DNA from: Sandaracinaceae bacterium | Lineage (GTDB): Bacteria; Myxococcota_A; Polyangia; Polyangiales; Sandaracinaceae | DNA: 64,000 bases | Assembly (NCBI GenBank): GCA_040218145.1 | Contig: JAVJQK010000074.1 | Location: forward strand, 1-64,000 | Direction of reading: 5' to 3' | Shown: piece after piece, positions 31,423-56,472 of the stretch | Position numbering within the stretch: position 1 is the first letter of the stretch | How the letters are laid out: every line of letters starts with the position of its first letter | Notes under the pieces: generated by a model | What the model was told of the DNA's origin: nothing | Seen by the model: the letters and a program-made list of their open reading frames with translations, nothing else | The model's database searches: none | Translations under genes and position numbers: made by a program

Positions 31423-32337
31423 TCAGCGGCAGTCGGGCGCGACCCGGCTGTCGGAGCCGGTGTAGACGTAGGCGTCGCTCACGTAGCCGCTGCCGATGAA
31501 GTCCCAGATCCGCGTCGTGCCGTAGGTGCCGCGGATCCGCTGCCCGATCTTCTGGCATCGGATGCGCACGCGGGCGCCGTCTCGCACCGAGCCCACGGCG
31601 CGGTAACCGGTGCCGGGGCCCGCACGCACGGTCAGGGGCGCGCCGGCGGTGTTGACGCGACCGGGATGGCCGGTGGTGCCGCCGCCGCCCCCGCCGCCGC
31701 AGCGGTTCTGGCTGCGGTAGTTGCGGGTGCCGAAGAAGTGCGCGGTGCGGCCGTCGAAGACCGGGCTGATCGCGATGCCGTTGCGGCGCAGCTCGTAGTG
31801 GAGGTGCGGGCCCGACGAGCCTCCGGTGTCGCCCACCGTGCCGATGCGCTGACCCTGGCTGACCCGGGCGCCCACGCTCACCGCCTGCGAGCGAAGGTGC
31901 GCGTAGCGGGTGCGGTAGCCGTTGCCGTGGTCGATCTCGATCCAGCGGCCGTAGCTGCGGTTGCCGAGGTTCTCGCTCCGCGTCACCCGGCCGGCCGCCG
32001 CCGCGACGACGGGGTCGCCGATGTCGTTGCTGCGGTTGAAGTCGATGGAGCGGAGGGGGCTGTGGTTGGTGCGCGTCTGCCCCGCCCAGGTCTGCCCACA
32101 GGGGAAAGGCAGCTGGAAACGCGGCGCGCCGCCGAGCTCGAAAGACGCGGTCTCGGTGTCCTCCTCGCCTTCGGGCGCGTCGGCGGACGGCTCGTCGGCC
32201 GGCGGACCTTCGTCCCACCAGTCCTCGTCGGCGAGGCTGGTGGCCGGATCCGGGTCGTGCTCACCCACGGGCACGGCGCAGCCGGCGTAGGCGAGGGTCA
32301 GAGCGAGGGACGCGGTGAGGGTGTGGGTGCGAAGCAT
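31423..32337 (-). CDS. M23 family peptidase lipoprotein with SH3-like domain
   Basis: A 304-residue lipoprotein (lipobox AYAGC, Cys20). An acidic linker precedes an M23 peptidase domain (about 75-200): zinc ligands are suggested by NHSPLRSIDFNRSN (His, Asp) and GPHLHYELRRNG (His-x-His), with DIGDPVVAAAAGRVTRSEN between. After a Gly-run linker (GGGGGGG) comes a bacterial SH3-like domain (about 225-304; LTVRAGPGTGYRAVGSVRDG, then YVSDAYVYTGSD). This layout fits a cell-wall-binding endopeptidase that cuts peptidoglycan crosslinks. The ATG at 32337 gives the signal peptide; the frame continues upstream without coding character. Confidence 0.88.
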   Translation of the reverse strand: MLRTHTLTASLALTLAYAGCAVPVGEHDPDPATSLADEDWWDEGPPADEPSADAPEGEEDTETASFELGGAPRFQLPFPCGQTWAGQTRTNHSPLRSIDFNRSNDIGDPVVAAAAGRVTRSENLGNRSYGRWIEIDHGNGYRTRYAHLRSQAVSVGARVSQGQRIGTVGDTGGSSGPHLHYELRRNGIAISPVFDGRTAHFFGTRNYRSQNRCGGGGGGGTTGHPGRVNTAGAPLTVRAGPGTGYRAVGSVRDGARVRIRCQKIGQRIRGTYGTTRIWDFIGSGYVSDAYVYTGSDSRVAPDCR

Positions 32338-32407
32338 GTCCCTGCCCTCTGCAAGACCCGTGGCAACAGCGCGAATCGCGCCCGCGGGCCCGTCCGCCCC
32401 CGATTTG

Positions 32408-32497
32408 TGCGGACTCGAGCCCGCATCGGGTCTCGGCCCGGATCGGGGCGCGCGGGGCCGCGACCGGGTTCTGGACGGATGCGATCTGGAGTCCGCA
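32408..32497. other. Nested long hairpin between divergent genes
   Basis: The outer arms TGCGGACTCGAG (32408-32419) and CTGGAGTCCGCA (32486-32497) pair at 11 of 12 positions. Inside them CGCATC pairs with GATGCG, and GGTCTCGGCCC pairs with GGGCCGCGACC allowing one internal mismatch. The structure fills much of the 237-bp gap between the M23 gene (minus) and the barrel gene (plus). It could be a structured RNA, attenuator or cruciform. Confidence 0.45.
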
Positions 32498-32574
32498 GTC
32501 GGGGCCGAAGACCCGGCGCACGCGCGGCGCCGCTTCCCGCACGAGACGCTCCGTGGGAGGATGGGCCGGCCTCG

Positions 32575-33342
32575 ATGAACCGCCGGCTCGCGCTCCACGG
32601 TCTGATGGCCCTCGCTGCGCTGCTCGCCCGGCCGACGGAGGCGCGCGCCTATCTGATCGACCTGAACGACGCGCGGGTGGTCGAGCACGGCACGATGGAG
32701 CTGGAGCTGCAGCCGGTCGGCTACTGGCAGACCGTCGTGGGCGAGGAGGAGCACTACCTGGTCGCCCCCTCGGCCCAGATCTACTGGGGCTTCGGCGAGG
32801 GCTGGGACCTCCTCTTGTTGACGCGGGGCTGGGCGCTGCTCGACGACGTGCCCGACCAGAGTCGCTACGCGCTCCAGGAGCAGATGATCGCGACCCGCAC
32901 CCTGCTGGTCGACGGCGGCTACTCGAGCGAAGGCGAGCGCGACGGGATCAGCCTCGCGCTGCAGACCGGCCTGCTGCTGCCCGGCGTCGAGGCGGAGACG
33001 GGCTTCGGCGCGAGCCTCGCGCTCCTGTTCGCGCAGCGCTGGGACGCGGGCACGCTGCACCTCAACGTCTGGACCAACTTCACCCAGGAGCGGACCTTCG
33101 AGCTGTTCGTGGCCGCGGTCATGGAGGGCCCGGACGCGTGGCCGGTCGTGCCGACGATCGAGGTCTGGTTCGATCTCGACGACGGCGTGCCCATGCTCAG
33201 CGGGCTGGTCGGCGCGCTCATCCCCATCGGCGACGAGTTCGCGCTGCAAGGCGGCGTGCGCATGGGCGGATGGGAGGGCTGGCTCGACCTCGAGGTGCGC
33301 GTCTCGACGTGGATCTACTGGGACGTCTTCGACGCGTCCTGA
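32575..33342 (+). CDS. Outer-membrane beta-barrel-like protein, family not recognised
   Basis: A 255-residue exported protein; the signal peptide ends EARAY (about residue 25). The mature part is built of alternating aromatic and polar strands (HGTMELELQPVGYWQTVVGE, PSAQIYWGFGEGWDLLLLTR, AGTLHLNVWTNFTQERTFEL, WEGWLDLEVRVSTWIYWDVF), typical of an outer-membrane barrel without a plug. The start at 32575 is preferred over the out-of-frame ATG at 32561. No named family; transport or structural roles are unassigned. Confidence 0.65.
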   Translation: MNRRLALHGLMALAALLARPTEARAYLIDLNDARVVEHGTMELELQPVGYWQTVVGEEEHYLVAPSAQIYWGFGEGWDLLLLTRGWALLDDVPDQSRYALQEQMIATRTLLVDGGYSSEGERDGISLALQTGLLLPGVEAETGFGASLALLFAQRWDAGTLHLNVWTNFTQERTFELFVAAVMEGPDAWPVVPTIEVWFDLDDGVPMLSGLVGALIPIGDEFALQGGVRMGGWEGWLDLEVRVSTWIYWDVFDAS

Positions 33343-40308: not shown

Positions 40309-43125
40309 TCAGCGGCGCGACGCCCAGAGCACCTCGCTCGTCTGCACGGCGCCCCGGTCGACGACCAGGTGCTGGTAGCCCATCGACATGCGCACGTCGG
40401 ACGCGTGCTGGCCGAACTGCCGCCAGGTGTAGTGGGTCAGCTCGCCCACGGTGAGGATGGCGTTGTGCGGATCGTTGTCGGCCTCGCCGTTGATGCCGAG
40501 CCGCAGGAAGTGCGAGAGGTAGCCGCCCGCCTGGAAGCGCCCCGCGACCGCGCTCGTCACGTCCTCCTCGCTCGAGAACATGCCGACGCGGCCGGGCCGG
40601 GTGATGACGTCCTTCGCGAAGCCGCCCGCGAAGCAGGCGTCGATGGCCACCAGCGCGACGCGCGCGTTCAGCCCGTCGAAGAGCCGGCCCAGCTCGTCGT
40701 CCATCATGCGCCCATCGTGCATCAGCAGGTACTCGTCCTGCCGGTCGAGCTCGCGCGGGTCGCTCGAGGAGTCGGTCTGGCCGCCGTGGCCCGAGTAGAA
40801 GAACACGAGCACGTCGTCGGGGCGGATGCGCTGCGTGATGGTCTGCATCGCCTGGCGCAGGTTCGCCGTCGTCGCCTGCGCGTCGGTGAACAAGAACTCC
40901 TGGCTCTGCGGCATGTTGCCCTGGTTGCGCACCGCCTCGGCCAGCTTGCGCGCGTCGTTCGCGCACTCGGGGAGATCGTTGACGCTCCCCGGGTAGTCGG
41001 TGATGCCCGCGAAGAGCCCCCACACGCGCCCGGCCTCGCCCGGGCTGGCGGCCGGCGTCCCGGGCGCGCTCGGCGCGCTGGGCGGCGCGACCACGCTCGG
41101 GCCTTCCGTCACCACGAGCCGGTAGCTCCCCGTCTCCCCGGGCCGGTAGCTCGTGACCGTGATCGTGTAGTCCCCCGGCTCGGCCACCGGCAGGTCGAGC
41201 CCGCTGTTCAGCGACTGCCCAGCCGCGAAGTCGTCGTTGTCCTCCTGGTGCCCGCTCGGCGAGCGCACGATCAGATAGGTGTCGAAGTCGCTCGACTCGA
41301 GCCGGATCTGGACCGCGCTCTGCGGCGTGAAGGACATGGTGAAGGCGTCGGCGAACTCGCCGCTCTCGAGCGTTCGATCGCCCTGGGCGAGCGTGCCCGT
41401 CTCCGTGCGCGCCCCAGCCGGCGCCGCGGCCGGTGTGGGGCTGGGCGTCGGTGTCGGCGTCGGTGTGGGGGTCGCGCCGCTCCCGTTCGCCTGGGGGGGC
41501 GCGGTCGGCGTCGTCGCGGGCGCGCCCCGGACGACCAGCGCGTAGCTCCCCGTCTCGCCCGGCTGATAGCTCGTGACGATCACGCGATAGGTCCCGCCCT
41601 GATCGACCTGGAGATCCAGCCCCGCGTCGAGCGACTGCCCCGGCCGGAGATCGTCGTTGTCCCGCTGCGGACCGCTGGGCGGGTGCACGATCAGGTAGCT
41701 GTCGAAGTCACTCGACTGCGCCTCGATGTGCACGCGCGTCCCCGCCGGCCACTCGAAGCGGTGCTCGTCCATGAACTCCCCGCTCTGCAGCGTCGTGTCG
41801 CCCTGCGCGAGGCTCCCTTCGATGCGCTGCTCGGGCCCGCCGCTCGGGGCGGCCGCGGCCTGGGGATCGCCGCGCTGGGTGAGCAGCTTCAGCTCGTACG
41901 GCCCGACCTCGCCCGCGCGGTAGCTGGTGGCCACGATCCGGTAGGTGCCCGGCGTGGTCAGCGGCATCGACAGGCGCGAGTTGAGGGTGCCGGCGTGGTC
42001 GTCGTTCTCCCAGTGCTGCCCGCCCGGACCGTCCACGCGGAGGAACGTGTCGAAGCTGCTCGACTCGAGCTCGATCGCGACCTCCGTGTCCATCGGCTGC
42101 GCGACCGTCAGCTCGTAGACGTCGTAGCGCTCGCCGCTCGGCAGCGTGGGATCGTTCTGCGCGAGGTTGCCGTGCAGGCGATCACCGATGCGGATGGGCA
42201 GCGCGCGCGGCTGCGGAGAGTCGGGCGAAGGAGCGGGCGCCGTCCCCGCCGCCTGGGCCGGCTGCACGGGCGGAGGCGAGTCGGCGTCGCGCCCCGCGCC
42301 ACGGAGCCGATCGAGCAGCTCGCTGAACTGATGGTGCGCCCGCGCGAGGAGCGGCGCCGACTCCGCGTCGGCCGCCTCCGCCGACACCGTGTAGGCGACG
42401 CCCTGGCGCCCGATGACCTGCACGTTGTAGTTGCCGGCGTTCGGCGCGCGGTAGACGTCGCCCTCCCCCGCCAGCGTCAGCCCGTTCGGCGCCACCACCG
42501 AGGTGCGCACCTCGCCGTCGCCGCGCGCGCGGACGCGGATGCGGCCCGGCTCGCTCAACCGGACCACGTAGGCGTCGAAGAGCTCCCCGCCGCTGAGCGT
42601 GTGATCGCCCTGGGCCAGCTCTCCGCTCGCGCTCTGCCCCGCGTTGATCACGGGGATGGACTGGCCCTCCTCGCCCACGCGCCGCGCGACCAGGCGGTAG
42701 GCGCCCTCACCCTGATCGGCGTAGGCGCGGACCTCGATCTTCATCTGGCCCGCCGCGGGCGCGATCAGCTCGAGCTGGGACCGGGTGCGATCGCCCTGCC
42801 AGTCGTCGTTGACCAGCGCGCCGCTCCCGGGCGGGGTGGCCTCGAGGAAGGGGTCGAAGGCGTCGCTCGTCAGCTCGATGAGCACCCGCTCGCCCGCCGC
42901 GACCTGCACGAAGTAGCGGTCGTAGCGCCCGCGCCCATCGCGCGCGTCGTCCGCCGCGAGCGTGCCCGCCTGCTCGAGCAGCGGCCCCGCGGGCGCCGCC
43001 GCCTCCGGCTCGACCGCGGCCGCGCCCTCCTCCGTGGACGAGGACGTCTCCTCCTCATCATCACCGCACGCCCAGAGGAGCCCCGCCAGCGCCACGCACA
43101 CCACCCACCCGAGCCTGGTTCTCAT
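40309..43125 (-). CDS. Metacaspase-type peptidase (C14) lipoprotein with five PPC-like domains
   Basis: A 938-residue lipoprotein (lipobox LLWAC, Cys20). Four clear and one degenerate PPC-like beta-sandwich units precede the enzyme; they carry the repeating pattern GxLAQGDxTLxSGE, SSDFDTYLIVxxPSG, NDDxxxGQSL and PGTYRIxxTSYxPGETG. A Pro-Thr linker (PTPTPTPTPSPTP) separates the last two. The C-terminal caspase-like domain starts near residue 699: AGITDYPGSVNDLPECANDA, the catalytic His motif FFYSGHGGQTD (about 782) and the catalytic Cys motif AIDACFAGG (about 830). Metacaspases cut after Arg/Lys in known members. Lipoprotein export plus PPC modules suggests an extracytoplasmic regulated protease. 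The ATG at 43125 gives the lipobox. Confidence 0.9.
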   Translation of the reverse strand: MRTRLGWVVCVALAGLLWACGDDEEETSSSTEEGAAAVEPEAAAPAGPLLEQAGTLAADDARDGRGRYDRYFVQVAAGERVLIELTSDAFDPFLEATPPGSGALVNDDWQGDRTRSQLELIAPAAGQMKIEVRAYADQGEGAYRLVARRVGEEGQSIPVINAGQSASGELAQGDHTLSGGELFDAYVVRLSEPGRIRVRARGDGEVRTSVVAPNGLTLAGEGDVYRAPNAGNYNVQVIGRQGVAYTVSAEAADAESAPLLARAHHQFSELLDRLRGAGRDADSPPPVQPAQAAGTAPAPSPDSPQPRALPIRIGDRLHGNLAQNDPTLPSGERYDVYELTVAQPMDTEVAIELESSSFDTFLRVDGPGGQHWENDDHAGTLNSRLSMPLTTPGTYRIVATSYRAGEVGPYELKLLTQRGDPQAAAAPSGGPEQRIEGSLAQGDTTLQSGEFMDEHRFEWPAGTRVHIEAQSSDFDSYLIVHPPSGPQRDNDDLRPGQSLDAGLDLQVDQGGTYRVIVTSYQPGETGSYALVVRGAPATTPTAPPQANGSGATPTPTPTPTPSPTPAAAPAGARTETGTLAQGDRTLESGEFADAFTMSFTPQSAVQIRLESSDFDTYLIVRSPSGHQEDNDDFAAGQSLNSGLDLPVAEPGDYTITVTSYRPGETGSYRLVVTEGPSVVAPPSAPSAPGTPAASPGEAGRVWGLFAGITDYPGSVNDLPECANDARKLAEAVRNQGNMPQSQEFLFTDAQATTANLRQAMQTITQRIRPDDVLVFFYSGHGGQTDSSSDPRELDRQDEYLLMHDGRMMDDELGRLFDGLNARVALVAIDACFAGGFAKDVITRPGRVGMFSSEEDVTSAVAGRFQAGGYLSHFLRLGINGEADNDPHNAILTVGELTHYTWRQFGQHASDVRMSMGYQHLVVDRGAVQTSEVLWASRR

Positions 43126-43188
43126 GGGCCGAACCATACCCGCAACGGCTTGACAGGGCCTAGTCGTCACCGGATGGTCCCCAGCCAA

Positions 43189-45255
43189 ATGACGAGCGCC
43201 GCCGCGAACCAGCCGACCCTCTTCGGTCACCCGACCGGTCTGTTCCAGCTCTTCTTCGCCGAGATGTGGGAGCGCTTCTCCTACTACGGCATGCGGGCGC
43301 TGCTCTTGTTCTACATGATCAAGGGCTTCCTCGGGCTCAACGACGGAGAGGCCTACGGCGTCTACGGCGCGTACACCGCGCTGGTCTACATGACGCCCTA
43401 CTTCGGCGGCATGCTGGCCGATCGGCTGCTCGGGCGAAGGCGGGCGGTGGTCGTGGGCGGCTTGCTGATGGCGGCGGGTCACCTCCTGATGACCATCGAG
43501 AACCGCTACGCATTCTTCGGCGCCCTCGCGTTGCTGATCGCGGGCAACGGCTTCTTCAAGCCGAACATCTCCACCATCGTGGGCGAGCTGTACCCGAAGA
43601 CCAGCGACAAGAAGGACGCGGGCTTCACGATCTTCTACATGGGGATCAACCTCGGCGCGGCGATGAGCCCCATCATCTGCGGCTACGTCGGGGAGACCTA
43701 CGGCTGGCACTACGGCTTCGGCCTCGCCACGGCGGGCATGCTGATCGGCGTCGCCGTCTTCGTCGCCCCCACCCTGCTCACGCAGGTCCTGATCGGCGTC
43801 GGCGTGCTGGCCACGTCGCTCGCGATGCCCTTCCTCCAGGACTCGCTCCTCCAGCTCGGCGTGCGGCTCCTGCTCGCGATCATGCTGCTCATCGCGGGCG
43901 TCGTGGCCATCCGCGCGCTCGGCAAGGGCCCTCTCGCGAAGGAGGCGGGCGCGCCGCCGGACCCCGAGGCCCTGAAGAAGAAGCTCTTCGGCTTCCTGCC
44001 CGCCGAGTACGCGGTCTATCTGGGCACCGGCGCCGCGGTGATCGCCTTCACCTTCATCGTGCAGGACGGCTCGGCCGCGGGCTGGGTGCTGAACATCACC
44101 GGGGTGATCTTCTTCATCTACGTCATCTACGACATGGTGACGAAGTGCACGCGCGTCGAGCGCCACAGGCTGATGGTCGTCTTGACGATCTTCTTCTTCA
44201 ACATGTTCTTCTGGGCCTGCTTCGAGCAGGCCGGCACCAGCCTCAACAACTGGACCGACCGCAACATCGACCGGGTGAGCGAGAGCGCGCAGGTCGAGGC
44301 GGGACAGGTCGGCGAGTCGATCCGCTTCCGGGTCTCCCCCGGCACCACCGACGCGGCGCTCACCGCCCTGCCGCTCCTGTCGCAGGAGCAGCTGGGCAAG
44401 GTCAACGGCGACGCCGGCATGGGGGAGCTGATCGCGCGCGCCGTCGGCGCGGTCGAGCGGCACCGCAACGAGACGCGGGACCCGGCTTCGCAGGCGAGCG
44501 AGGAGGACATCGCGGGGCTCCAGGCGCGGGTGCGCGAGAGCGACGTGCTGACGATGACGGGCCTGACCTATCTGCGCGCCGCGGCCGCGGCCGACGTGGC
44601 CCTGGACGGCGCCGACGTCGTGGAGTGGCGGGTGGTCGAGGAGAACGTGGGCATGGGCCTCGGCGACTCCGAGATCCCGGCCAGCGAGTTCCAGGCCGCC
44701 AACCCCGTCTACATCATCATCTTCGGGCTCCCGCTCAGCGCGCTCTGGGCCTTCCTCGCCGCGCGGCGGCGGGACCCGAGCACGCCGGTGAAGTTCGCGC
44801 TCGGCATCGCGCAGCTCGGCCTCGGCTTCCTCGTCTTCTACTGGGGCGCGGAGCACGCGAACGAGCGCGGCATGTCGTCGATGGCCTACCTGCTCATAGG
44901 CTGGCTCTTCGTGACCACGGGGGAGCTGTTCTCGTCCCCGGTCGGGCTCTCGATGGTGACCAAGCTCTCCCCCGGCCGGCTCGTGAGCAGCATCATGGGC
45001 GGCTGGTTCCTGGCCACCGCCTTCTCGAACTACCTCGCCGCGGTCATCGCGACCTTCACCGGCGTCTCGCACGGTGAAGAAGGCTTGCAGTTCATCCCCT
45101 CGCCGATGGAGACGGCCGAGACCTACGGCGACGTCTTCGGCATCATCGGCGTGACCGCGCTCGGCGCGGCGGTGGTGCTGCTCGCGCTCGCGCCGCTCCT
45201 CAAGCGCGGCATGCACCCGGGCCACGAGGACACGGCGCAGCCGACCGAGTTCTGA
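43189..45255 (+). CDS. POT/PTR2-family proton-dependent peptide transporter
   Basis: A 688-residue inner-membrane transporter. The start at 43189 gives the usual TLFGHPTGLFQLFF N-terminus; an ATG at 43174 would add five residues. Signature motifs: EMWERFSYYGMRALLLFYM, GNGFFKPNISTIVGELYPKT and FYMGINLGAAMSPIICGYVG. A long loop insertion of about 130 residues between helices (about 360-490) is beyond the usual POT length but occurs in some related peptide transporters. It imports di- and tripeptides coupled to protons (family knowledge). It is divergent from the metacaspase gene (63 bp) and followed within 7 bp by an unknown membrane protein gene. Confidence 0.9.
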   Translation: MTSAAANQPTLFGHPTGLFQLFFAEMWERFSYYGMRALLLFYMIKGFLGLNDGEAYGVYGAYTALVYMTPYFGGMLADRLLGRRRAVVVGGLLMAAGHLLMTIENRYAFFGALALLIAGNGFFKPNISTIVGELYPKTSDKKDAGFTIFYMGINLGAAMSPIICGYVGETYGWHYGFGLATAGMLIGVAVFVAPTLLTQVLIGVGVLATSLAMPFLQDSLLQLGVRLLLAIMLLIAGVVAIRALGKGPLAKEAGAPPDPEALKKKLFGFLPAEYAVYLGTGAAVIAFTFIVQDGSAAGWVLNITGVIFFIYVIYDMVTKCTRVERHRLMVVLTIFFFNMFFWACFEQAGTSLNNWTDRNIDRVSESAQVEAGQVGESIRFRVSPGTTDAALTALPLLSQEQLGKVNGDAGMGELIARAVGAVERHRNETRDPASQASEEDIAGLQARVRESDVLTMTGLTYLRAAAAADVALDGADVVEWRVVEENVGMGLGDSEIPASEFQAANPVYIIIFGLPLSALWAFLAARRRDPSTPVKFALGIAQLGLGFLVFYWGAEHANERGMSSMAYLLIGWLFVTTGELFSSPVGLSMVTKLSPGRLVSSIMGGWFLATAFSNYLAAVIATFTGVSHGEEGLQFIPSPMETAETYGDVFGIIGVTALGAAVVLLALAPLLKRGMHPGHEDTAQPTEF

Positions 45256-45262
45256 GCGTGAC

Positions 45263-47449
45263 GTGAGCGCGCGCCGCGGACAGATCGCGTTCTCGAGCTC
45301 GCTCGTCCTCGCCGTCTTCGCGCTCGGGGGCGCGGTCGCCGCGTTCTTCGTCGCGTCGTCGGCCGCGCTCGCGGTGCTCGGCGGGTCCGCGTGCGTCGCC
45401 TTCGTCGCGCTGGTGTTCGGCTTCGTCTCGCTCCGGGGCGACCGCTTCCGCCGCTCGCTCGGCGCCATCCTCGCCAGCCTCCTCGTGCTGACGGGCATCG
45501 GCGTCGCGTTCGCGGTGACGAGCGTGCGCGGCTTCCTCGCCGCGGTGGAGGCGGCGCAGGGCCCCCAGCCGGTCGTGGACGAGGAGTTCCAGTTCCGGCT
45601 CACGCCGCCGAGCGACGACGCGGAGATGTTCGGGCTCGACCGGGCGACCGAGCTGCACCCCAGGGCGCGCGCCGGCTTCCAGGTCCACGGCTGGAGCGAG
45701 GAGGACCTGCCGGATCTCGAGGCGGCCGTGTTCGTCGAGCCGAGCTACGGGCTCTCGCTCGAGGAGGCGGCGGCGCTCCAGCTCCCGCGCATCGCCGACG
45801 CCGAGCCGTCGTGGCGCTCGGAGGCCATCGAGGCCGAGGTCCTCGACCGGCCCGCGCTGCGGTTCCGGCAACAGACCGCGACTGACGGGGGCGCGTGGTG
45901 GCAGGAGATCACCTTCTTCACCGACGCCGATCACCTCTACGCGCTGTCGGCGCGCAGTCATCGGCTCGGCACCCACCCCGACGGAGATCCCTGGTACCCC
46001 TCCCTCGAGGCGGCCTTCTCCCTGCTCGGCGGTGAGATCGCGTACGGCGAATACCACGACCCGCTCACGCGGAGCGGCGCGGGATGGGAGGTGGAGCGGG
46101 GCCGCTTCTCGAGCCGGGTCTGGGGTCTGACGGTCGACGCCACGGACGAGCGCTGGGAGATGCGCGCCGGCCACGCCGCGTGCGAGCGCGAAGACGGCTC
46201 GCTGCTCACGCTCACGCGTCGCCGGCCCGAGGTCGCGCTGCGCGTGGTCCCGCTGTCCGTGTCGGGCCGCAGCCGGGCGGAGGTGGAGTCGTCGGTCCTG
46301 TACCCCGACGACCCCGCGCTCGACGCGCCCCCGATCACCCTGGCGCTCGCCGGCCAGGACGTCGCGTTCGAGGCGGTGCGGGCCCACGGCGAGCCACCGC
46401 GGGTCGGCCGGCGCGGGCTGTGGATCGACGACACACGCGCGCTGGTGTTCGTCGTGATGGGCCCCACGCTCGCGGTGGCGGACGCGGAGCTGCGCGAGCT
46501 CGCGCCGCGCGTCTCCGTCGGGCCCGCGGAGCCCGACGCGCCGCTGTCGCCGTGGGAGTATCTGGAGCCGGATCACTGGGCGCGGGGCGGGGCGCTGCAC
46601 CTCGCCTACGAGCCGCTGCGGTGGCGTCGCCCGAGCTCCGCCTGGCGCGCGTGCGGCCTACCGGGCGTGCCGCTGGCGCAGGTCACCCCGAGCCGACGGG
46701 CGCAGCTGATGTGGCTCGAGGCGCCGTCGCTCGGGCTGACGGGCGTCGTGCGCGTGGGTGACGCCCCGGAGCCGCTCCTGCTCGCGGAGCCCGGGGACGT
46801 CGTGCAGGTCGGAGGCGGTCGACTCCTGCGGAGCGGGCCGATCGAGGGGCGCGCGAGCGGGGAGTGGGTCGCCACCTGGGTGCGTCAGACGCAGACCGAT
46901 CAGCTCCTGGTCGAGATCTGGGGCAGCGCGCGCGACGTGGAGCGACACGCGAGCGAGATCGAAGCCGCCATCGCCGGGCTCGAGGTGCTCGACGCGCCGC
47001 CCTTCGCCGGCATCGACGACGACGGCGTCTACCGCGACGCGCGGCTGGGCTTCGAGTTCGCGCCGCCGTGGCCCCTCGACGACGTCTACGTCCCCAACGA
47101 CGACCCGGGCGCGGTCTGGCTCGAGGCGCAGGAGGGCGCCCACCTCATGGCCCTGTTCGCTGCGCCTCGACGCACGGAGCGCACCGTCGAAGCGCAGGCG
47201 CACGACTTGCTCGACGACCTGTACCCACGCGCGCCGCACTTCGGGCGCCTGCGCGAGGGTCCCCTCGGCGACTGCGCGGGCGGCGAGATCGTGCAGCGAG
47301 ACGCGCCGATGGGGCTGGGGGGCGCGAGCCTCTACCGCTGCGTCTCGGACGACGTCCTCTTCGTGCTCTACGTGCAGCGCGGCCCGAACGGGCCCGATCC
47401 CCAGCGCATCGCCGACGGGCTGACCTTGTCTGCGCGGGCCGCTCAGTAG
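45263..47449 (+). CDS. Membrane protein, function unknown
   Basis: A 728-residue protein with a GTG start 7 bp after the transporter stop. Three hydrophobic helices at the N-terminus (about 10-33, 36-57 and 67-95) are followed by about 630 residues of soluble domain with no recognisable family. It contains repeated beta-rich units (DEEFQFRLTPPSDD, ARLGFEFAPPWPLDD) that resemble each other, and acidic and aromatic residues throughout. Probably anchored with its large domain outside the cytoplasm. It overlaps the Trx-like gene on the other strand by 7 bp. I do not recognise it. Confidence 0.7.
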   Translation: MSARRGQIAFSSSLVLAVFALGGAVAAFFVASSAALAVLGGSACVAFVALVFGFVSLRGDRFRRSLGAILASLLVLTGIGVAFAVTSVRGFLAAVEAAQGPQPVVDEEFQFRLTPPSDDAEMFGLDRATELHPRARAGFQVHGWSEEDLPDLEAAVFVEPSYGLSLEEAAALQLPRIADAEPSWRSEAIEAEVLDRPALRFRQQTATDGGAWWQEITFFTDADHLYALSARSHRLGTHPDGDPWYPSLEAAFSLLGGEIAYGEYHDPLTRSGAGWEVERGRFSSRVWGLTVDATDERWEMRAGHAACEREDGSLLTLTRRRPEVALRVVPLSVSGRSRAEVESSVLYPDDPALDAPPITLALAGQDVAFEAVRAHGEPPRVGRRGLWIDDTRALVFVVMGPTLAVADAELRELAPRVSVGPAEPDAPLSPWEYLEPDHWARGGALHLAYEPLRWRRPSSAWRACGLPGVPLAQVTPSRRAQLMWLEAPSLGLTGVVRVGDAPEPLLLAEPGDVVQVGGGRLLRSGPIEGRASGEWVATWVRQTQTDQLLVEIWGSARDVERHASEIEAAIAGLEVLDAPPFAGIDDDGVYRDARLGFEFAPPWPLDDVYVPNDDPGAVWLEAQEGAHLMALFAAPRRTERTVEAQAHDLLDDLYPRAPHFGRLREGPLGDCAGGEIVQRDAPMGLGGASLYRCVSDDVLFVLYVQRGPNGPDPQRIADGLTLSARAAQ

Positions 47450-48024
47450 ACGAGGCCGAGCGGGTCGACCTGGTCCTGGAGCGCCGGGCTGACCGCGCAG
47501 CCGTAGATGGGCAGCGGCTCCACGGGCTCGTGGGCCGCGACCGCGCGCGCGATCGCCTCGTCGCGCGGGCTCACGGCCGCGGGGACCGCGTAGTAGCCGC
47601 CCACGTAGTCGAGCTCGGCCGACGCGAGCACGAGGAGCGGCGCGGCGTCGACGCCGAGGGTGTCCGAGAGGGACCTCGGATCCGTCCGGCGGAAGCGATA
47701 GCCCCGCCGGCGCGCTTCTCGGGCGCGCTCTGCGTCGTCGCCGACATAGAGGACGAGCTCGTCGACCCCGCGCGCGGCGCCGCGCTCCATCAGGTGCGCC
47801 CACAGCGAGCGGGTGCAGGAGCAGTCCTCGTAGATCACGTGCAGCCGCAGCGGCGCGTCCAGGAGGCGCAGCGCCGCGACCCCTTCGCGCAAGCGGTCTT
47901 CGTCCGACGGAGACGGCATCGCCACCACGTGGCTCACCATCAGGAAGGCGAGCACGGTCACCGTGACCGGCAGCCACGCGGCCAGCGCGACCTTCCCCAA
48001 GCGATCTCTGGCGACGGGGCTCAC
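47443..48024 (-). CDS. Membrane-anchored thioredoxin-like protein
   Basis: A 193-residue protein. An N-terminal membrane helix (about 12-36) precedes an alpha/beta domain with the motif LHVIYEDCSCTRSLWAHLM (Cys68 and Cys70, a C-x-C) and a third Cys near the end (IYGCAV). The strand-C-x-C-helix arrangement suggests a thioredoxin-like fold with a noncanonical redox or metal site. It overlaps the SCO gene by 4 bp (ATGA) and so is likely its functional partner, possibly in copper delivery or cysteine reduction for cytochrome oxidase (inference). Confidence 0.65.
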   Translation of the reverse strand: MSPVARDRLGKVALAAWLPVTVTVLAFLMVSHVVAMPSPSDEDRLREGVAALRLLDAPLRLHVIYEDCSCTRSLWAHLMERGAARGVDELVLYVGDDAERAREARRRGYRFRRTDPRSLSDTLGVDAAPLLVLASAELDYVGGYYAVPAAVSPRDEAIARAVAAHEPVEPLPIYGCAVSPALQDQVDPLGLVY

Positions 48025-48653
48025 CGCGACTCCCGACGGGCTCGCGCGAGCTCGCGGAGGACGCGGCTCGGGCTGCTCGGCCGGAGCAGGGTGGCCACCA
48101 CCCGCGCGCGGTGGTCGACCACGAAGAGGCTCGTCGGATGATCGAGCCGCGTCCCCTCGCCGACCGCCATGCGTCCTCCGAGCGCGGCCGTGAACGACTC
48201 GAGGGCCGCGCGCTCGCCCGTCACGCCGACCAGGCGTGGATGAAACGCCGACACGTACTCGCCCATGCGCGCGACGTCGTCGTGCTCCGGGTCGACGCTC
48301 ACGAAGATGACTTGCGAATCTTCGGGCAGACGATCGAGCACGGGCGCGAGCACGCTCAGCGTGGTCGGGCAGACGTCGGGGCAGCGCGTGTAGCCGAGGA
48401 ACACGAGGCTGAAGTGGCCTCGGAGCCGCGCGGCGTCGAAGACCTCACCCCGATGATCGAGGAGCGCCACCGCGCCGAGCGGCCGCGGCGGATCCATCGC
48501 GACGTAGGTGCGCCGCGCCGCGTCGAGCGCGTCCGAGCCGCGGGCCGGCGCGCGGCTCGTCCAGAGCGCCGCCGCGGCGCCTCCGACGAGCGCGCAACCG
48601 AGCCAAAGCTGCCAGGGTCTGACCACGAGGGTGATCAACGGAGCGAATCCCAT
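48021..48653 (-). CDS. SCO family copper chaperone-like protein
   Basis: A 210-residue protein with one N-terminal membrane helix (about 14-33) and a SCO/thioredoxin-like domain. The metal ligands of Sco proteins are all present: the CPDVC motif (Cys91 and Cys95) and His172 in RLDHPTSLFVV. SCO proteins deliver copper to the CuA centre of cytochrome c oxidase or act as redox sensors. No oxidase subunits are in the window. It is the first gene of a coupled pair with the C-x-C protein. Confidence 0.9.
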   Translation of the reverse strand: MGFAPLITLVVRPWQLWLGCALVGGAAAALWTSRAPARGSDALDAARRTYVAMDPPRPLGAVALLDHRGEVFDAARLRGHFSLVFLGYTRCPDVCPTTLSVLAPVLDRLPEDSQVIFVSVDPEHDDVARMGEYVSAFHPRLVGVTGERAALESFTAALGGRMAVGEGTRLDHPTSLFVVDHRARVVATLLRPSSPSRVLRELARARRESR

Positions 48654-48707
48654 CGAATTGAGACCGAGCGCCTCAAGCCGACCGCGCCGTGTCCGTTGCC
48701 GGATCGC

Positions 48708-49742
48708 ATGAGCCAGAGCGCGAGCGAGCGGTCGGGGGGCCTACGCGCCCTCTGGAACTACCTGAAGCTGCCCGACGAGGTCACCGACTTCGAGCGCGAC
48801 TACCTGCGCAAGGTGAACAAGGTCGGGCTGCTGTTCTTCCTCGCCCACCCCCCGGTGTTCGTGGCCCTCGCGTACTTCAACGACACCGGGCCGCTCGACG
48901 CGATCTGGCTGTCCGCGCTGGTGCTGAGCGGCCCCGTGATCGCGCACCGCACCCTGAGTCACCCGCGCGCGCACGCCGTCGTCTTCGGCGTGACCGCGAT
49001 GCTGATGGGCGGCCTCCTCGTGCACTTCGGCCAGGGGCCGGTGCAGATCGAGATGCACTTCTACTTCTTCGTGCTCCTCGCGCTGCTCGCCCTCTACGGC
49101 AACCCGATGTCGATCGTGGCCGCGGCGGTCACCGTCGCCGCGCACCACGCCATCCTCTGGCTCGTGCTGCCGAGCAGCGTCTTCAACTACGACGCGCCCT
49201 TCTGGGTGGTGGCGATTCACGCGGCCTTCGTCGTGCTCGAGAGCACCGCGGCCTGCTTCGTGGCGCGCAGCTTCTTCGACAACGTCATCGGCCTCGAGAA
49301 GATCGTCTCGGCCCGCACCGAGGCGCTCAACGACCGCAACGCGGCCATGAAGCTGGTCCTCGACAACGTCGAGCAGGGCTTCGTGACGATGAACCGCGAC
49401 GCGGTGATGTCGGCGGAGCACTCCAAGGTGCTCGAGACCTGGTTCGACGACGTCGAGGGAGGCACGCCCTTCGCGGCCCTCCTGCGGCAGGCCTCGCCCG
49501 AGACGGCGACCTGGTTCGAGCTGGGATGGGACGAGGTGCTCGCGGGCTTCATGCCGCTCGAGCTGACGCTCCATCAGCTCCCCAAGTCGATGAAGGTCGG
49601 CGGGCGCGACCTCGAGATCGACTACCAGCCGATCGGCGGCGAGGACTTCGAGCGCATGCTGGTCGTCATCACCGACGCCACCGCCCGGGTGGCCCGTGAG
49701 CGGGCCGAGCAGATCGAGCGAGAGCTGTTCTCGCTGTTCTAG
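48708..49742 (+). CDS. Sensor kinase N-terminal part, truncated by in-frame TAG
   Basis: A 344-residue protein: an N-terminal soluble segment, then six or so membrane helices (about 40-200), then a coiled linker (EKIVSARTEALNDRNAAMKL) and a PAS-like domain (about 225-340). The frame stops at TAG (49740-49742), immediately after LFSLF. The next codons continue, in the same frame, into Hpt and HATPase domains (49743-50693). A CAG-to-TAG change of one codon would explain this; the intact protein would be 661 residues. Homologous sensor kinases run without interruption across this point. If translation really ends here, this part alone lacks a kinase domain. Confidence 0.8.
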   Translation: MSQSASERSGGLRALWNYLKLPDEVTDFERDYLRKVNKVGLLFFLAHPPVFVALAYFNDTGPLDAIWLSALVLSGPVIAHRTLSHPRAHAVVFGVTAMLMGGLLVHFGQGPVQIEMHFYFFVLLALLALYGNPMSIVAAAVTVAAHHAILWLVLPSSVFNYDAPFWVVAIHAAFVVLESTAACFVARSFFDNVIGLEKIVSARTEALNDRNAAMKLVLDNVEQGFVTMNRDAVMSAEHSKVLETWFDDVEGGTPFAALLRQASPETATWFELGWDEVLAGFMPLELTLHQLPKSMKVGGRDLEIDYQPIGGEDFERMLVVITDATARVARERAEQIERELFSLF

Positions 49743-49769
49743 AAGATCGTCGAGGACAAGGCCGGCGTC

Positions 49770-50693
49770 GTGGAGTTCTACCTCGAGGCGCGTGAGCTGG
49801 TGGCGCACATCACGAGCGCTGACGAGGCCAACCCGGCCGTGCTCAAGCGCTGGATCCACACCCTCAAGGGCAACGCCGGCATCTACGGCCTATCGTCCAT
49901 CGCGGACACTTGCCACGACATCGAGACCCGGATGGCGGAGGAGAGCGTGCTGCCCTCCGAGCGCGAGCTGACGGATCTGAGCGCCCGCTGGGACGAGATC
50001 AGCAGCCGCCTGGCGTCGCTGCTGGGCGAGCAGAAGCAGCGCATCGAGCTCGACGACGAGGACTACCACGGCTTCCTCCAGGCGGTCGTCGCGGGCGCGC
50101 CGCACGAGGAGCTCGCCGAGCGGGTCGCGTCGTGGAAGTACGAGCCCACCCGCCAGCGCCTCGCGCGGATCGCGGAGCAGGCGAAGGGCATCGCGGAGCG
50201 CCTCGGCAAGGGGGTCGACGTGGAGCTCGAGCCGAACGACGTCCGGCTGCCGGCCGATCGGTACTCGACCTTCTGGAGCGCCTTCGTGCACGTGGTCCGC
50301 AACGCGGTGGACCATGGCATCGAGCCGGCGAACGACCGCGAGGGCAGCGGCAAGTCAGCGACCGGGCACCTGAAGCTGGTGACCCGCCAGGAGGAGGGCC
50401 GGGTCCTCGTCGAGATCTCGGACGACGGCCGCGGCATCGACTGGGACGAGGTGCGCCGCGTCGCGGCGCTCGGCGGCGTGCCCGCGAACTCGCAGGACGA
50501 GCTCCGCGCGGCCATCTTCGCCGACGGGGTCACGACCCGCGAGGCGGTGAGCGACCTGTCCGGCCGGGGCGTGGGCATGGGCGCCGTGCTCGCCGCGACC
50601 GAGGAGCTCGGAGGCCGGGTCAGCATCGACACGGCCACCGGCGAGGGCACGGTGGTGCGCTTCAGCCTCCCGGCCCCGCGGGTCCAGGCCTGA
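49770..50693 (+). CDS. CheA-like Hpt-HATPase part, downstream of the in-frame TAG
   Basis: In the same frame as the upstream sensor part. The first possible start after the TAG is the GTG at 49770, which has only a weak Shine-Dalgarno (GAGG, 14 bp before). Reading from it gives 307 residues: an Hpt-like helix with phospho-acceptor His in RWIHTLKGNAGIYGL (about residue 35), a helical linker, and a HATPase domain with N-box HVVRNAVDHGIEPAND, G1 SDDGRGIDW and G2 SGRGVGMGAVLAATEEL. There is no CheW-like domain, so this is CheA-like in its kinase but not a chemotaxis CheA. Alone it would lose its sensor and membrane anchor. Confidence 0.8.
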   Translation: MEFYLEARELVAHITSADEANPAVLKRWIHTLKGNAGIYGLSSIADTCHDIETRMAEESVLPSERELTDLSARWDEISSRLASLLGEQKQRIELDDEDYHGFLQAVVAGAPHEELAERVASWKYEPTRQRLARIAEQAKGIAERLGKGVDVELEPNDVRLPADRYSTFWSAFVHVVRNAVDHGIEPANDREGSGKSATGHLKLVTRQEEGRVLVEISDDGRGIDWDEVRRVAALGGVPANSQDELRAAIFADGVTTREAVSDLSGRGVGMGAVLAATEELGGRVSIDTATGEGTVVRFSLPAPRVQA

Positions 50694-50696
50694 CGC

Positions 50697-52235
50697 TCAG
50701 ACCAGCTTGTCGAGGAGCGCGCGGTCGCCCTGGATGGCGCAGCGCTGCATGTAGAAACGCAAGCCGCGCTCGCCGCCCAGCTCCTCGCCGCCGCCGGCGC
50801 GACCGGGGCCGCCGTGCACGCAGCTCGGGAGCACGAGCCCGGGGCTGATCGCCTGGTCGGCGACCTTCTTGGTGCCCATCAGGATGCGCCCGCTGTAGGG
50901 CGCGAGCGAGAGCACCAGCTCGGCGGTGAGCTTGCGGTCGTCGCCGTAGACGCTGGCCACCAGGCCGCCGCCGCCGCGCGCGACGAGCTCCACCACCTCG
51001 TCGACCTCGGTCCAGGGCATCAGGGTGGTGCAGGGCCCGAAGACCTCGTGCGCGTGCACCGCCGCCGCCTCCGCCGGCGCGTCCGCGCGGAGCAGGGTCG
51101 GCGCGACGAAGTAGCCCTTGGACGCGTCGGCGTCGATGAGGCTCGGCGCGCCGCCGCCGTAGACGACCTTCGCGCCGGCGGCCTTCAGCTTCTCGACGCC
51201 GGCCAGGAAGTCCGCGTGCTGCTGCTTCGTCGCGAGCGGGCCCATGCGGACCTCCTTGCTCGCCGGGTTCCCGATGGTGATCTGGTCGAGCCGCTCGCCG
51301 AGGTCCTCGATCACGCGGTCGATGCGGCTGGCGTGCACGAAGACGCGGCGCGTCGCCGTGCACTTCTGCCCGGCCTTCTGGGTCATCTCGGTGACCACGT
51401 CGCGCAGGAACATCTGGTAGGTGTCGTCGTCGACGTCCTCCGCGAGCACGGCCGCGTTGAGGCTGTCCGCCTCGACGTTCACCCGGGTCGAGCGGGCGAG
51501 CACGTTCTCGAGGCCGCGGAGCTTCAGCCCGGTGTCCGCCGAGCCGGTGAACGCGAGCGCGTCCTGCTCGCCGAGGTGGCTGAGCAGGTCGCCGGTGGAG
51601 CCGCAGACGAGCTGCACGGCGCCGCGCGGGATCTCGCCCGTCTCGACCATCTTCTCCATGACGCGGAAGGCGAGGAGCGAGGTCGAGGTCGCGGGCTTGG
51701 TGATCACCGGCACGCCGGCCAGGAGCGCGACCGCGAGCTTCTCCGCCAGCCCCCACGCCGGGAAGTTGAACGCGTTGATGTGCACCGCCACGCCCCGCAG
51801 CGGCACCCAGACGTGCTTGCCGAAGAAGCGGGCGCTCTGGGTGAGCTGCTCGCTCTCCTCGCCCAGCGCCTTCGCGTCGCCGAGCTTCTTGCCGAGCCCC
51901 GCGTAGAACGCGAGGGTCGCGCTCGCGCCGTCGATGTCGAACTTCGCGTCGCCGCGCGTGGTGCCGCCGCTGACGATCGAGGCCTCGATGAGCTCCTCGC
52001 GCGCGGCGTGAATCGCCTTCGAGAGGGCCTTGAGCACCTTGCCGCGCTCACCGAAGGTCATCGCGCGCAGCGCGGGCCCGCCGACCTCGCGCGCGTGCCG
52101 CACGACCTCGCCGAAATCGACGCCTCCGGTGCCGGTGCGCGCAATTTCTTCGCCGGTGGTCGGGTCGACGAGGGTCGCCATCTCGGACTGACCTTCGACC
52201 CACTCGCCTCGCAGGTAGCTCTTCAGCGTGATCAT
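50697..52235 (-). CDS. Aldehyde dehydrogenase of the BoxD/PaaZ type
   Basis: A 512-residue enzyme resembling the dehydrogenase of the box (aerobic benzoyl-CoA) and phenylacetate pathways, which oxidises CoA-bound semialdehydes. The general base Glu255 (NVEADSLN) and nucleophile Cys292 ([11 protein letters not shown]) are present. It lacks the C-terminal MaoC hydratase domain of PaaZ, so BoxD (3,4-dehydroadipyl-CoA semialdehyde dehydrogenase) is the closer match. [20 protein letters not shown] and [20 protein letters not shown] are typical of the group. No other box or paa genes are near. Convergent with the sensor kinase gene, 3-bp gap. Confidence 0.8.
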
Positions 52236-52402
52236 GGAGCGCAGCCTAGCCCGGGCCTCGCGCGAGCCACGTGATGTTCCGCAGACGGGTCGATGTGTGC
52301 CGAATCGCACGGAGCCGGGCGGCGATGTCCGGCGGTCGAGCTTTCTGCGACCTGGCCATTCCCAAGGGAACGGTTGGCCCCTATCCTGCACCGCGAATCG
52401 AC

Positions 52403-52954
52403 ATGCGTGGGGGGACCTGGACGATCGGCGCGCTCTCGGCTGGCGCGCTCTTGATGGCGGCGCTGGCGGCGCCCGCGGCGCGCTCTCAGACCGCGGCGCT
52501 CGAGGACTTCTCCGGCGCGTGGCGCCTGGACGGCACGCGTCAGGTGCAGCGCATGGACGACGCGATCGACCGGGTCGTCGACCAGATGAACCTGCTCATC
52601 CGGGAGATCGCGCGCGGCGAGATCCACCGGCGCATCGACCCAGAGCACCGGGTCGTCATCCGCGTCGACGACGAGCAGCACGTGCGGCTCGGCTACGACG
52701 ACTGGGGGCCCCAGCGCCTCCGGCTCGGCGGCGCGGCCGTCGCGACCCGGGGCCCGGACGGAAACGACATCCGCATGTCGCTCCGCTTCGAGCGGGGCCG
52801 GCTCATCGCCCGGCAGAACGCGGGAGAAGGCCGGCGCACCAACATCTTCAGCCTCTCCGCCGACGGCAGCCGCCTGACGATGTCCAGCCGCATCGGCGCT
52901 CCTCAGCTGCCGGCGGACATCCGCTACCGGCTGAGCTACCGCCGCGCCCGCTGA
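52403..52954 (+). CDS. Secreted protein, function unknown
   Basis: A 183-residue exported protein; the signal peptide ends PAARSQ (about residue 28). The mature part starts with EDFSGAWRLDGTRQVQRMDDAIDRVVDQMNLL (a helix), then beta strands (VVIRVDDEQHVRLGYDDW, IFSLSADGSRLTMSSRI). It looks like a lipocalin-like small beta domain, but no family can be assigned. Its 3' end overlaps the hybrid kinase gene by 19 bp tail-to-tail. Confidence 0.65.
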   Translation: MRGGTWTIGALSAGALLMAALAAPAARSQTAALEDFSGAWRLDGTRQVQRMDDAIDRVVDQMNLLIREIARGEIHRRIDPEHRVVIRVDDEQHVRLGYDDWGPQRLRLGGAAVATRGPDGNDIRMSLRFERGRLIARQNAGEGRRTNIFSLSADGSRLTMSSRIGAPQLPADIRYRLSYRRAR

Positions 52955-55008
52955 GGCGGGGCCGCCGCCGCCTCCAGCCTTCCGAGGCACGCTTCCAGGC
53001 GCTCGAGCGGCTCGCCGGCCGTCGTCGCCTCCTCGAGGGCCCGCGCCGCCTCACCGAGCGCCGGGAAGCCGAAGCTCCCGGCCGCGCCCGCGAGCTTGTG
53101 CGACGCGTGCGCGAGGCCCGCGCGGTCTCCCGCGTCGAGCAGGGCGCGCAGCTCCTCGAGGCGTTCGGGCACACGGCGCGCGTAGCCCTCGCGCAGGGCG
53201 CGGAGCTTCGCGGGCACGGCGTCCTCGTCCGACCCGGGCGCGTCCGCGCTCGAGTCCACCGCCGCGAGTGCCTCTTCGGCCCTGCGTTCCCCGAGCGTGC
53301 CCTCCTCCGCCCGGGGCTCGCGGCTCGTGAGGCGGGCGATGGTGGCGAGCAGGGACGCGAAGTCGACCGGCTTGCCGAGATACGCGTCGCACCCCGCCTC
53401 GAGGCAGCGTTCCCGGTCGCCGCGCATCGCGAACGCGGTCAGCGCGATCACCGGCGTGTGCACGCCCCGCGCGCGCAGGCGCCGCGTGGCGGTCAGGCCG
53501 TCCACCCGCGGCATGTCCACGTCCATCAGGATCAAGTCGTGAGGCGAGGACGCGGCGAGCTCGAGCGCCTCCTGGCCGTCGCTCGCCGCGTCGACGGCCG
53601 CCCCCCGCCGCTCGAGCTCGAACGTGAGCAGCGTGCGGAGATCGGCGCTGTCCTCGGCGAGGAGGAACCGCAGGCCGTCCAGGCGCCCGTCGACTCGCGC
53701 GCTGGGCTGCGACACGCGGACCGGCTCGACCGGCCCCGGTGGCCGGAGCGGGACCTCCGCGTGCGAGGGGAGCGAGAAGACGAAGCGCGCGCCCGGCCCC
53801 TCGCGCGGGACGAACCGCAGCCCTCCGTCCATGAGGCCCGCGAGGTGCCGGCAGAGCATCAGGCCGAGGCCCGTGCCCTTCTTGGCCGCCTTGCCCGCCG
53901 TGCCCTGCCAGAACGCGTCGAAGAGTCGATCGACCTCGTCTTCGGGGACCCCGGGGCCGTCGTCGTCGACGATGAGCTCGAGCCACCCTTCGCGCGCGGC
54001 CACGGTCAAGGTCACTTGCCGCTCGGCGAATTTCGCCGCGTTCGTCAGCAGGTTGAGGAGCACCTGGCGGGCGCGGCGCGGATCGGTCTCGACGCGAGAA
54101 GGCCAGGGCGTGCTCGCCTCCGCGCGGATCTCGATCTCGTCGCCCGCCTCGGGGCGCGCCGACAGGGCGTCGACGGCGTCGCACACCAGCTCCGCCACGT
54201 CGACGTCCTCGACCGCGATGGACAGCGCCCCCGCCTCGACCTTCGACAGGTCGAGCAGGTCGTCGAGGAGCGCGAGCAGGTGCCGACCGTTGCGCGCGAC
54301 GACGGCCGCGTGCGCGCGCTGGGTCGCGTCGTCGACGTCGGGGAGCTGCAGCAGGTCGGCGTACCCCAGGATCGCCGCCGCGGGCGTCCGGAGCTCATGG
54401 CTCATGGTGGCGAGGAAGCGCGTCTTGGCGTCGCTGGAGGCCTCGCCCGCCTCCGCCCGCTCGGTCGCGGCCTGCGTGGCCGCGCTCAGCGTACGCGCGA
54501 ACCAGGCCGCCCCCGCCACCACGGTCAACACCGACACCGTGAGCACGAAGCCGAACTGAGGCGTGCCCTCGAGCCCTTCGATCGGAGGGCCGAACGGGAG
54601 CGCGTGGGCGAAGACGAGCAGCCCCAGGTTCAGCGCGGTCGCCGTGAGCGAGGCGAGGAGGAGCGCGCGCTCTTCCCAGGCGATCATGATGAACGCCAAG
54701 GAGCCGCCGACCACGACGAGCGGCGCGGCGGTGCGGATCCCCAGCACGTAGAGCGACGCGATCGTCAGCCCGTGCACGATGAGCATGAACCACGCGCGCG
54801 CCGCGGGGCCGGTGCTGCCACGGAGCGCGGCCGGCGCGAGGAGCGCGAGGGTGAGCGCCGGAGGCACCCACACCCACGGAGGCGAGACCACGAGGTCCCG
54901 CGCCACCGCGAGCGCCGCCAGGAGGCAGGCCCCGCGATACACGCCTCGCGTGACGCGCGCGCGCGCGGCGGCTTGCACGCTGGGTCGCGAAGCGTCCGGC
55001 CCGGACAT
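52936..55008 (-). CDS. Hybrid sensor histidine kinase with REC and Hpt domains
   Basis: A 690-residue signalling protein. About six membrane helices (20-170) are followed by a HisKA domain (His204 in TMSHELRTP), a HATPase domain (N-box LLNLLTNAAKFA, DDDGPGVPED, GTGLGLML), a receiver domain (Asp496 in LILMDVDMPRVDG, Lys546 in GKPVDF) and a C-terminal Hpt domain (His637 in HASHKLAGAAGSFGF). The full relay within one chain suggests phosphotransfer to a separate response regulator. The ATG at 55008 is chosen; an upstream GTG at 55014 would add two residues. No REC-output gene is adjacent. Confidence 0.92.
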   Translation of the reverse strand: MSGPDASRPSVQAAARARVTRGVYRGACLLAALAVARDLVVSPPWVWVPPALTLALLAPAALRGSTGPAARAWFMLIVHGLTIASLYVLGIRTAAPLVVVGGSLAFIMIAWEERALLLASLTATALNLGLLVFAHALPFGPPIEGLEGTPQFGFVLTVSVLTVVAGAAWFARTLSAATQAATERAEAGEASSDAKTRFLATMSHELRTPAAAILGYADLLQLPDVDDATQRAHAAVVARNGRHLLALLDDLLDLSKVEAGALSIAVEDVDVAELVCDAVDALSARPEAGDEIEIRAEASTPWPSRVETDPRRARQVLLNLLTNAAKFAERQVTLTVAAREGWLELIVDDDGPGVPEDEVDRLFDAFWQGTAGKAAKKGTGLGLMLCRHLAGLMDGGLRFVPREGPGARFVFSLPSHAEVPLRPPGPVEPVRVSQPSARVDGRLDGLRFLLAEDSADLRTLLTFELERRGAAVDAASDGQEALELAASSPHDLILMDVDMPRVDGLTATRRLRARGVHTPVIALTAFAMRGDRERCLEAGCDAYLGKPVDFASLLATIARLTSREPRAEEGTLGERRAEEALAAVDSSADAPGSDEDAVPAKLRALREGYARRVPERLEELRALLDAGDRAGLAHASHKLAGAAGSFGFPALGEAARALEEATTAGEPLERLEACLGRLEAAAAPPQRARR

Positions 55009-55030
55009 TCCCACACGATACCGCAGCGAC

Positions 55031-55047
55031 CAGCCCGCAACGGGCTG
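55031..55047. promoter_or_regulatory. Small inverted repeat between divergent kinase and oxygenase genes
   Basis: CAGCCCG and CGGGCTG form a perfect 7-bp dyad with a CAA loop in the 75-bp gap between the starts at 55008 (minus) and 55084 (plus). A second GCTACC/GGTAGC dyad follows. Both may act as operators for either gene. Confidence 0.3.
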
Positions 55048-55083
55048 CTACCGCCAGGGCCTCCGATCTGGTAGCCCGAACGG

Positions 55084-56472
55084 GTGGACCATCCGTACCT
55101 GAGCGGGCCCTACGCGCCCATCGACACCGAGATCGACGTCACACTCGAGGTGGTCGAGGGCGAAGTGCCGCGTGATCTCTTCGGTGCCTACGTGCGCAAC
55201 GGCCCCAACCCGAAGCGCGCGCCGCTCGGCGCCCACCACTGGTTCGACGGCGACGGCATGCTGCACGCGGTGCACGCAGAGGACGGGACGCTGCGATACC
55301 GAAACCGCTTCGTCTCGACGGAGGCGACGCGGCGCGAGGACGAGGCGGGCCGGCCGCTGTGGCGCGGGCTGATGGAGTCCACCGCGGACAACCCGAAAGG
55401 TCAGCCCTACAAGGACACCGGCAACACCGACGTGGTCTTCCACAACGGGGAGCTGCTCACGCTCTGGTACATCTGCGGCGGCGCGCACCGGGCGGACGCG
55501 CGGACCCTCGAGAGCCGCGGCGCGCACTCCTTCGGGGGCGAGCGCCCGATGAAGCTCTCGGCCCACGCGAAGGTCGACGCCCGGAACGGCGAGCTGCTCT
55601 GGTTCGACTACGGGCCGCGCCCGCCCTTCATGCGCTACGGCGTCGTCGACGCGCAGGGCCAGCTCGCCCACGCCACGGACATCGATCTGCCGGGCCCGCG
55701 CCTCCCGCACGACATGGCGTTCACCGAGAACCACGCGATCCTCATGGACCTGCCGGTGTGGTTCCGCCCCGAGGCGCTGAAGGAGCGCAAGTGGATGGTC
55801 GACTACCACCGTGACGTGCCCGCGCGCTTCGGCGTGATCCCGCGCCGCGGGCAGGGCGCGGAGATCCGCTGGTTCGAGGCCGAGCCCTGCTACATCTACC
55901 ACTCGGTCAACGCGTGGGAGGAGGACGGCGCGATCGTCATGATCGGCTGCCGCTGCGACGATCCGATGCCGACGCCGAACCCGGAGGACGGCCGCTTCGC
56001 CCGCGCGCTGGCGAACCTGCGCCTGAGCGCGCGCCTGCACCGGTGGCGCTTCGACCTCGAGACCGGCGCGTGCACCGAGGAGGCCCTCGACGACCGCAAC
56101 GCGGAGTTCCCGTCGATCAACGCGCGCTTCGGCGGCCGCCCGTCGAAGTTCAGCTACCACATGGCCATCCCCGAGGCGCGCACGCTCTTCTTCGACGGGA
56201 TCGTCAAGTATGGCCCTCGAGGAGAGCTGTCGCGCCACACGTTCGGGCCCGGCGTCTTCGGGAGCGAGGCGCCGTTCGCGCCGCGCGAGGGAGCGACCGA
56301 GGAGGACGACGGCTACCTGCTGAGCTTCGTCCAGGACACCGCTCGCGATGTCTCGGAGCTCTGGATCTACGACGCGCGCGCGCTCGAGGAGGGTCCGCGC
56401 TGCAAGGCGGTGATCCCGCAGCGCGTCCCGCTCGGGTTCCACGCGACCTGGGTCGAGGGAGCGCAGCTGTGA
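55084..56472 (+). CDS. Carotenoid oxygenase (RPE65/CCD/lignostilbene dioxygenase family)
   Basis: A 462-residue non-heme iron enzyme; GTG start. The four iron-binding histidines are recognisable: His161 (LSAHAKVD), His209 (LPHDMAFTENH), His273 (IYHSVNAWEEDG) and His453 (GFHATW). The family N-terminus is present (YAPIDTEIDVTLEVVEGEVP, GAYVRNGPNP). These enzymes split C=C bonds in carotenoids or stilbenes to give aldehydes. The stop overlaps the first thiolase start (GTGA), an unexpected partner. Substrate not readable. Confidence 0.9.
   Translation: MDHPYLSGPYAPIDTEIDVTLEVVEGEVPRDLFGAYVRNGPNPKRAPLGAHHWFDGDGMLHAVHAEDGTLRYRNRFVSTEATRREDEAGRPLWRGLMESTADNPKGQPYKDTGNTDVVFHNGELLTLWYICGGAHRADARTLESRGAHSFGGERPMKLSAHAKVDARNGELLWFDYGPRPPFMRYGVVDAQGQLAHATDIDLPGPRLPHDMAFTENHAILMDLPVWFRPEALKERKWMVDYHRDVPARFGVIPRRGQGAEIRWFEAEPCYIYHSVNAWEEDGAIVMIGCRCDDPMPTPNPEDGRFARALANLRLSARLHRWRFDLETGACTEEALDDRNAEFPSINARFGGRPSKFSYHMAIPEARTLFFDGIVKYGPRGELSRHTFGPGVFGSEAPFAPREGATEEDDGYLLSFVQDTARDVSELWIYDARALEEGPRCKAVIPQRVPLGFHATWVEGAQL

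Follow-up and report, generated by a model that had tools for sequence, protein, structure and literature searches.

Gene content and reading frame at the kinase locus

The window analysed here (64,000 nucleotides of the genome of a marine myxobacterium of the Sandaracinaceae, contig JAVJQK010000074.1) encodes a CheA-like kinase composed of membrane helices, a PAS-like domain, a linker helix, an Hpt (P1-like) domain and a CheA P4-type ATPase domain (Table 1). The gene occupies a single forward-strand reading frame. From the ATG at 48708-48710 to the TGA at 50691-50693 this frame is interrupted once, by the TAG at 49740-49742 (codon 345), as the first-pass annotation had described. When the TAG is masked, the frame comprises 661 residues and contains no further stop. 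Both parts follow the coding pattern of the genome, with GC fractions at codon positions 1, 2 and 3 of 0.67, 0.39 and 0.98 before the stop and 0.73, 0.46 and 0.97 after it. The upstream extension of the frame to a GTG at 48111 deviates from this pattern (0.85, 0.53 and 0.76), and the ATG start is backed by homologues whose alignments begin at residue 1-3. The open frame across the TAG is not due to chance: homologues align continuously past the stop and the 661-residue frame is intact in another genome of the same species. If translation stops at the TAG, the N-terminal part is the product.

Table 1. Features of the kinase gene and its neighbours in the window
Feature	Coordinates	Strand	Description
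SCO1/SenC protein, divergent, upstream	48021..48653	-	Pfam PF02630, E=2.2e-31
N-terminal part of kinase ORF	48708..49739	+	344 codons; six predicted membrane helices, PAS-like domain, start of linker helix
In-frame TAG, codon 345	49740..49742	+	CAG (Gln) in the same-species genome G038
C-terminal part of kinase ORF	49743..50690	+	remaining linker helix, Hpt (P1-like) domain, CheA P4-type HATPase domain
GTG, proposed second start, residue 355	49770..49772	+	within first helix of Hpt; ribosome-binding signal at background level
TGA, natural stop of full ORF	50691..50693	+	
Aldehyde dehydrogenase family gene, convergent, downstream	50697..52241	-	Pfam PF00171, E=4e-76

A co-directional response regulator gene directly downstream is absent from both the window copy and the collinear copy in the same-species genome. 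In this the window copy differs from several members of its family, in which a response-regulator (REC) ORF adjoins the kinase gene directly downstream on the same strand (L087, L088, L090, L091, L096, L098, L115 and L116) and probably encodes the phosphorylation partner of the kinase.

Domain organisation and predicted structure

Using Pfam, we detected Hpt (E=1.3e-8) and HATPase_c (E=2.9e-14) after the stop and no match in the half before it. Every catalytic motif is located downstream of the stop, namely HTLKG in the Hpt domain, whose histidine is His384, the N box, DDGRGID and SGRGVGM. A profile of the family matched CheA P4 with E about 1e-46 to 1e-50 and CheA P1 with E of 2e-7. The predicted structure of the intact protein from the same-species genome (mean pLDDT 87) has CheA P4 as its best compact structural match (Foldseek, TM-score up to 0.87 by target length). 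The labels "Hpt-HATPase" and "CheA-like", which had been proposed from the letters alone, are correct. The model shows, in order, a helical membrane part in which six helices can be counted, a PAS-like alpha/beta domain, a helix spanning residues 325-369, the Hpt bundle and the ATPase domain. The earlier PAS label is plausible, since a PAS-like fold is predicted and PAS_4 is found in 8 of 43 full-length homologues, but weak, since Pfam recognises no PAS domain in the window protein. Codon 345 lies in the middle of the one unbroken predicted helix 325-369, about where the Hpt matches start, and is therefore not a natural boundary between two proteins.

The kinase shares with CheA an Hpt domain with the HxxKG phospho-site, including the phospho-accepting histidine, and a P4-type ATPase domain. 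It differs from CheA in being membrane anchored and in carrying its own sensor part. A CheW-like P5 domain is lacking in the window protein, and Pfam detected neither a CheW domain nor the P3 dimerisation domain of CheA in any of the 43 full-length homologues, all of which contain Hpt and HATPase_c. In a further difference from CheA, no chemotaxis genes occur among the adjacent genes examined.

Conservation of the frame among homologues

Homologues align without a break over the stop, with 41-54% identity across about 640 residues. If the stop is read through, the window gene resembles its family in this full-length alignment and in its continuous homology over the membrane, PAS-like, Hpt and ATPase parts in the same order; the members are, however, single uninterrupted genes, whereas the window copy is broken at codon 345. 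We found no stop in the column of this codon in the 89 homologues that cover the site (90 distinct alignments); the residues there are Glu (41), Gln (14), Asp (11) and others (23, including Gly, Ser, Lys and Thr). Among about 95 matches in the order, the only one with an internal stop is the window's own. The stop is therefore a derived state, and the relatives show no conserved split. Relatives with a conserved stop and a separate start for the second half, the case that the first-pass annotation had named as counting against its reading, were not found in either set.

We detected no second intact copy in the source genome; the best paralogue there reaches 39% identity across the kinase part. 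A paralogue on contig C127 was considered as a second interrupted kinase on account of one TGA and was rejected, as this TGA is the end of that gene itself. No relatives of the kinase were detected in viral contigs.

Comparison with a genome of the same species

The within-species comparison comprises the window genome and one other, the metagenome-assembled genome Sandaracinaceae bacterium MED-G138 (G038, contig SHBB01000235.1), which originates from a bottle experiment with Mediterranean seawater (PMC6931264). It is collinear with the window over positions 41975-55419 (13.4 kb) at 99.39% identity; the alignment contains 81 substitutions and a single one-base indel, which is intergenic. The kinase gene is present at the same locus, has CAG (Gln) at codon 345 and retains the full 661-residue frame without a stop. 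The original codon had been guessed to be CAG, and the comparison with a sibling genome, which had been proposed along with that guess, bears it out. In total, 11 codons of the kinase gene differ between the two genomes: seven changes are synonymous, three are missense and the remaining one is codon 345.

We screened about 89 kb of one contig against G038 for differences that create stops. Of 835 single-base differences, only the one at 49740 introduces a stop into a frame that carries a coding signature before and after it. It is thus an isolated lesion and not part of general decay. A candidate for a second coding amber difference, at 31423-33249 (TAG in G038, CAG in the window), was rejected because it lies upstream of an M23-peptidase-like gene, in an extension of the frame that is non-coding, and it therefore gives no hint that TAG is read as Gln.

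The same comparison showed that a small lipoprotein-like gene (12991-13422, +) in the window genome lacks one base of a G-run at about 13391 (GGGG, versus GGGGG in G038) and is shortened as a result. The deletion either disrupts a second gene specifically in this strain or is an error in the homopolymer. The two lesions, at 49740 and 13391, are compatible either with ordinary strain variation or with a low residual error rate.

Origin and consequences of the stop codon

Four readings of the stop had been offered: a recent nonsense mutation, a sequencing error, readthrough, and a split into two proteins. The CAG of G038 supports the first two, and it is very likely that the TAG is either a nonsense allele or a sequence error. 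Between these, we regard it as probable that a C-to-T nonsense change arose recently and specifically in this strain, parting the sensor from the kinase and likely abolishing function. The main rival, possible but considerably less probable, is a consensus or assembly error, in which case the organism really has CAG and an intact kinase and the T was miscalled. Such an error would agree with the CAG of the sole same-species comparison genome and with the intactness of the rest of the gene, and the G-run deletion that breaks another gene on the same contig raises the chance of consensus errors. Against this, collinearity holds between the two genomes, one-base indels are few and the substitutions form an ordinary mix, so the assembly does not have the appearance of an error-rich one, and C-to-T is a common natural change.

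A useful split and programmed readthrough are both unlikely, because relatives show no conserved stop or split and because neither a suppressor tRNA nor a convincing start signal was found. A split would yield two useful proteins, the sensor half and a soluble kinase with the Hpt and HATPase domains, the second being made from the GTG at 49770 or another downstream start. The location of all catalytic motifs beyond the stop and the AAGG that sits 8 bases upstream of the GTG fit such an arrangement, and so does the still open distal frame, although an open frame is expected anyway if the change is recent. However, the TAG interrupts one long helix, the GTG lies within the first helix of Hpt, no relative conserves the split, and the anti-Shine-Dalgarno duplex energy at the GTG is ordinary (-5.6, compared with a 25% quantile of -5.8 for the window); we therefore consider an evolved split very unlikely. 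We give a slightly lower rating to a real and tolerated stop with the distal part re-initiated as a soluble, sensor-free Hpt-ATPase kinase, which, if true, would turn a regulated CheA-like kinase into an unregulated one by strain-specific rewiring. That a full-length kinase arises by programmed readthrough or recoding of the TAG is extremely improbable: the frame is open on either side and 14 homologues have Gln at this position, but several called genes in the window terminate in TAG, the sister strain has CAG, the relatives lack a conserved stop and no CUA anticodon was detected among the about 66 tRNA genes of the genome, which is listed as 100% complete.

The source genome also contains 19 tRNA genes within about 7 kb on one strand (contig C126, 106202-112884), many of which score below the scattered tRNAs. 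This cluster resembles the tRNA arrays carried by mobile elements or phages.

Under the nonsense reading, which we prefer, the intact protein would signal from its six-helix membrane domain and PAS-like domain via one long helix to the Hpt domain. There, the CheA P4-type ATPase domain, acting within its own molecule or on a partner, would phosphorylate His384, which would pass the phosphoryl group to a separate response regulator. One C-to-T change, turning CAG into TAG at codon 345, would stop translation within the linker helix; the change may be recent, as no other damage has accumulated in the gene. The likely outcome would be a membrane stub of 344 residues that lacks the catalytic domains. 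The distal part, if translated at all through weak re-initiation at the GTG or another downstream start, would yield a kinase uncoupled from its sensor. Strain-specific nonsense mutations (recent pseudogenes) of bacterial genomes share this pattern, with one substitution to a stop, an otherwise intact gene and an intact copy in a sister strain; apart from read support, no difference from such cases was found. Most likely the window gene is an ordinary loss of function of this kind or a sequence error, and not a new type of split or recoded gene. For annotation, the kinase should be recorded as disrupted in the window genome and intact in G038.

A widespread family of membrane-anchored CheA-like kinases

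Beyond annotation, the stop codon matters little, and the kinase family is the better subject. Full-length homologues occur in Myxococcota, Planctomycetota, Nitrospirota and other lineages, and a literature search for the membrane-PAS-Hpt-HATPase kinase architecture returned nothing. The family, which joins a sensor and CheA P1 and P4 domains in one membrane protein without a CheW domain, is widespread and seems to be uncharacterised. Its membrane part has no Pfam model, yet contains the strongly conserved motifs GQGPVQIEMHFYFF, FNYDAP and ARSFFDNVIGLEKIV (homologues L076-L117). One homologue, in the Nitrospirota MAG OFTM336 (L125, 6001-7750), has decayed independently and has four in-frame stops at aligned residues 97, 306, 337 and 360. 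Similar copies in OFTM211 and OFTM308 are free of stops over the aligned part.
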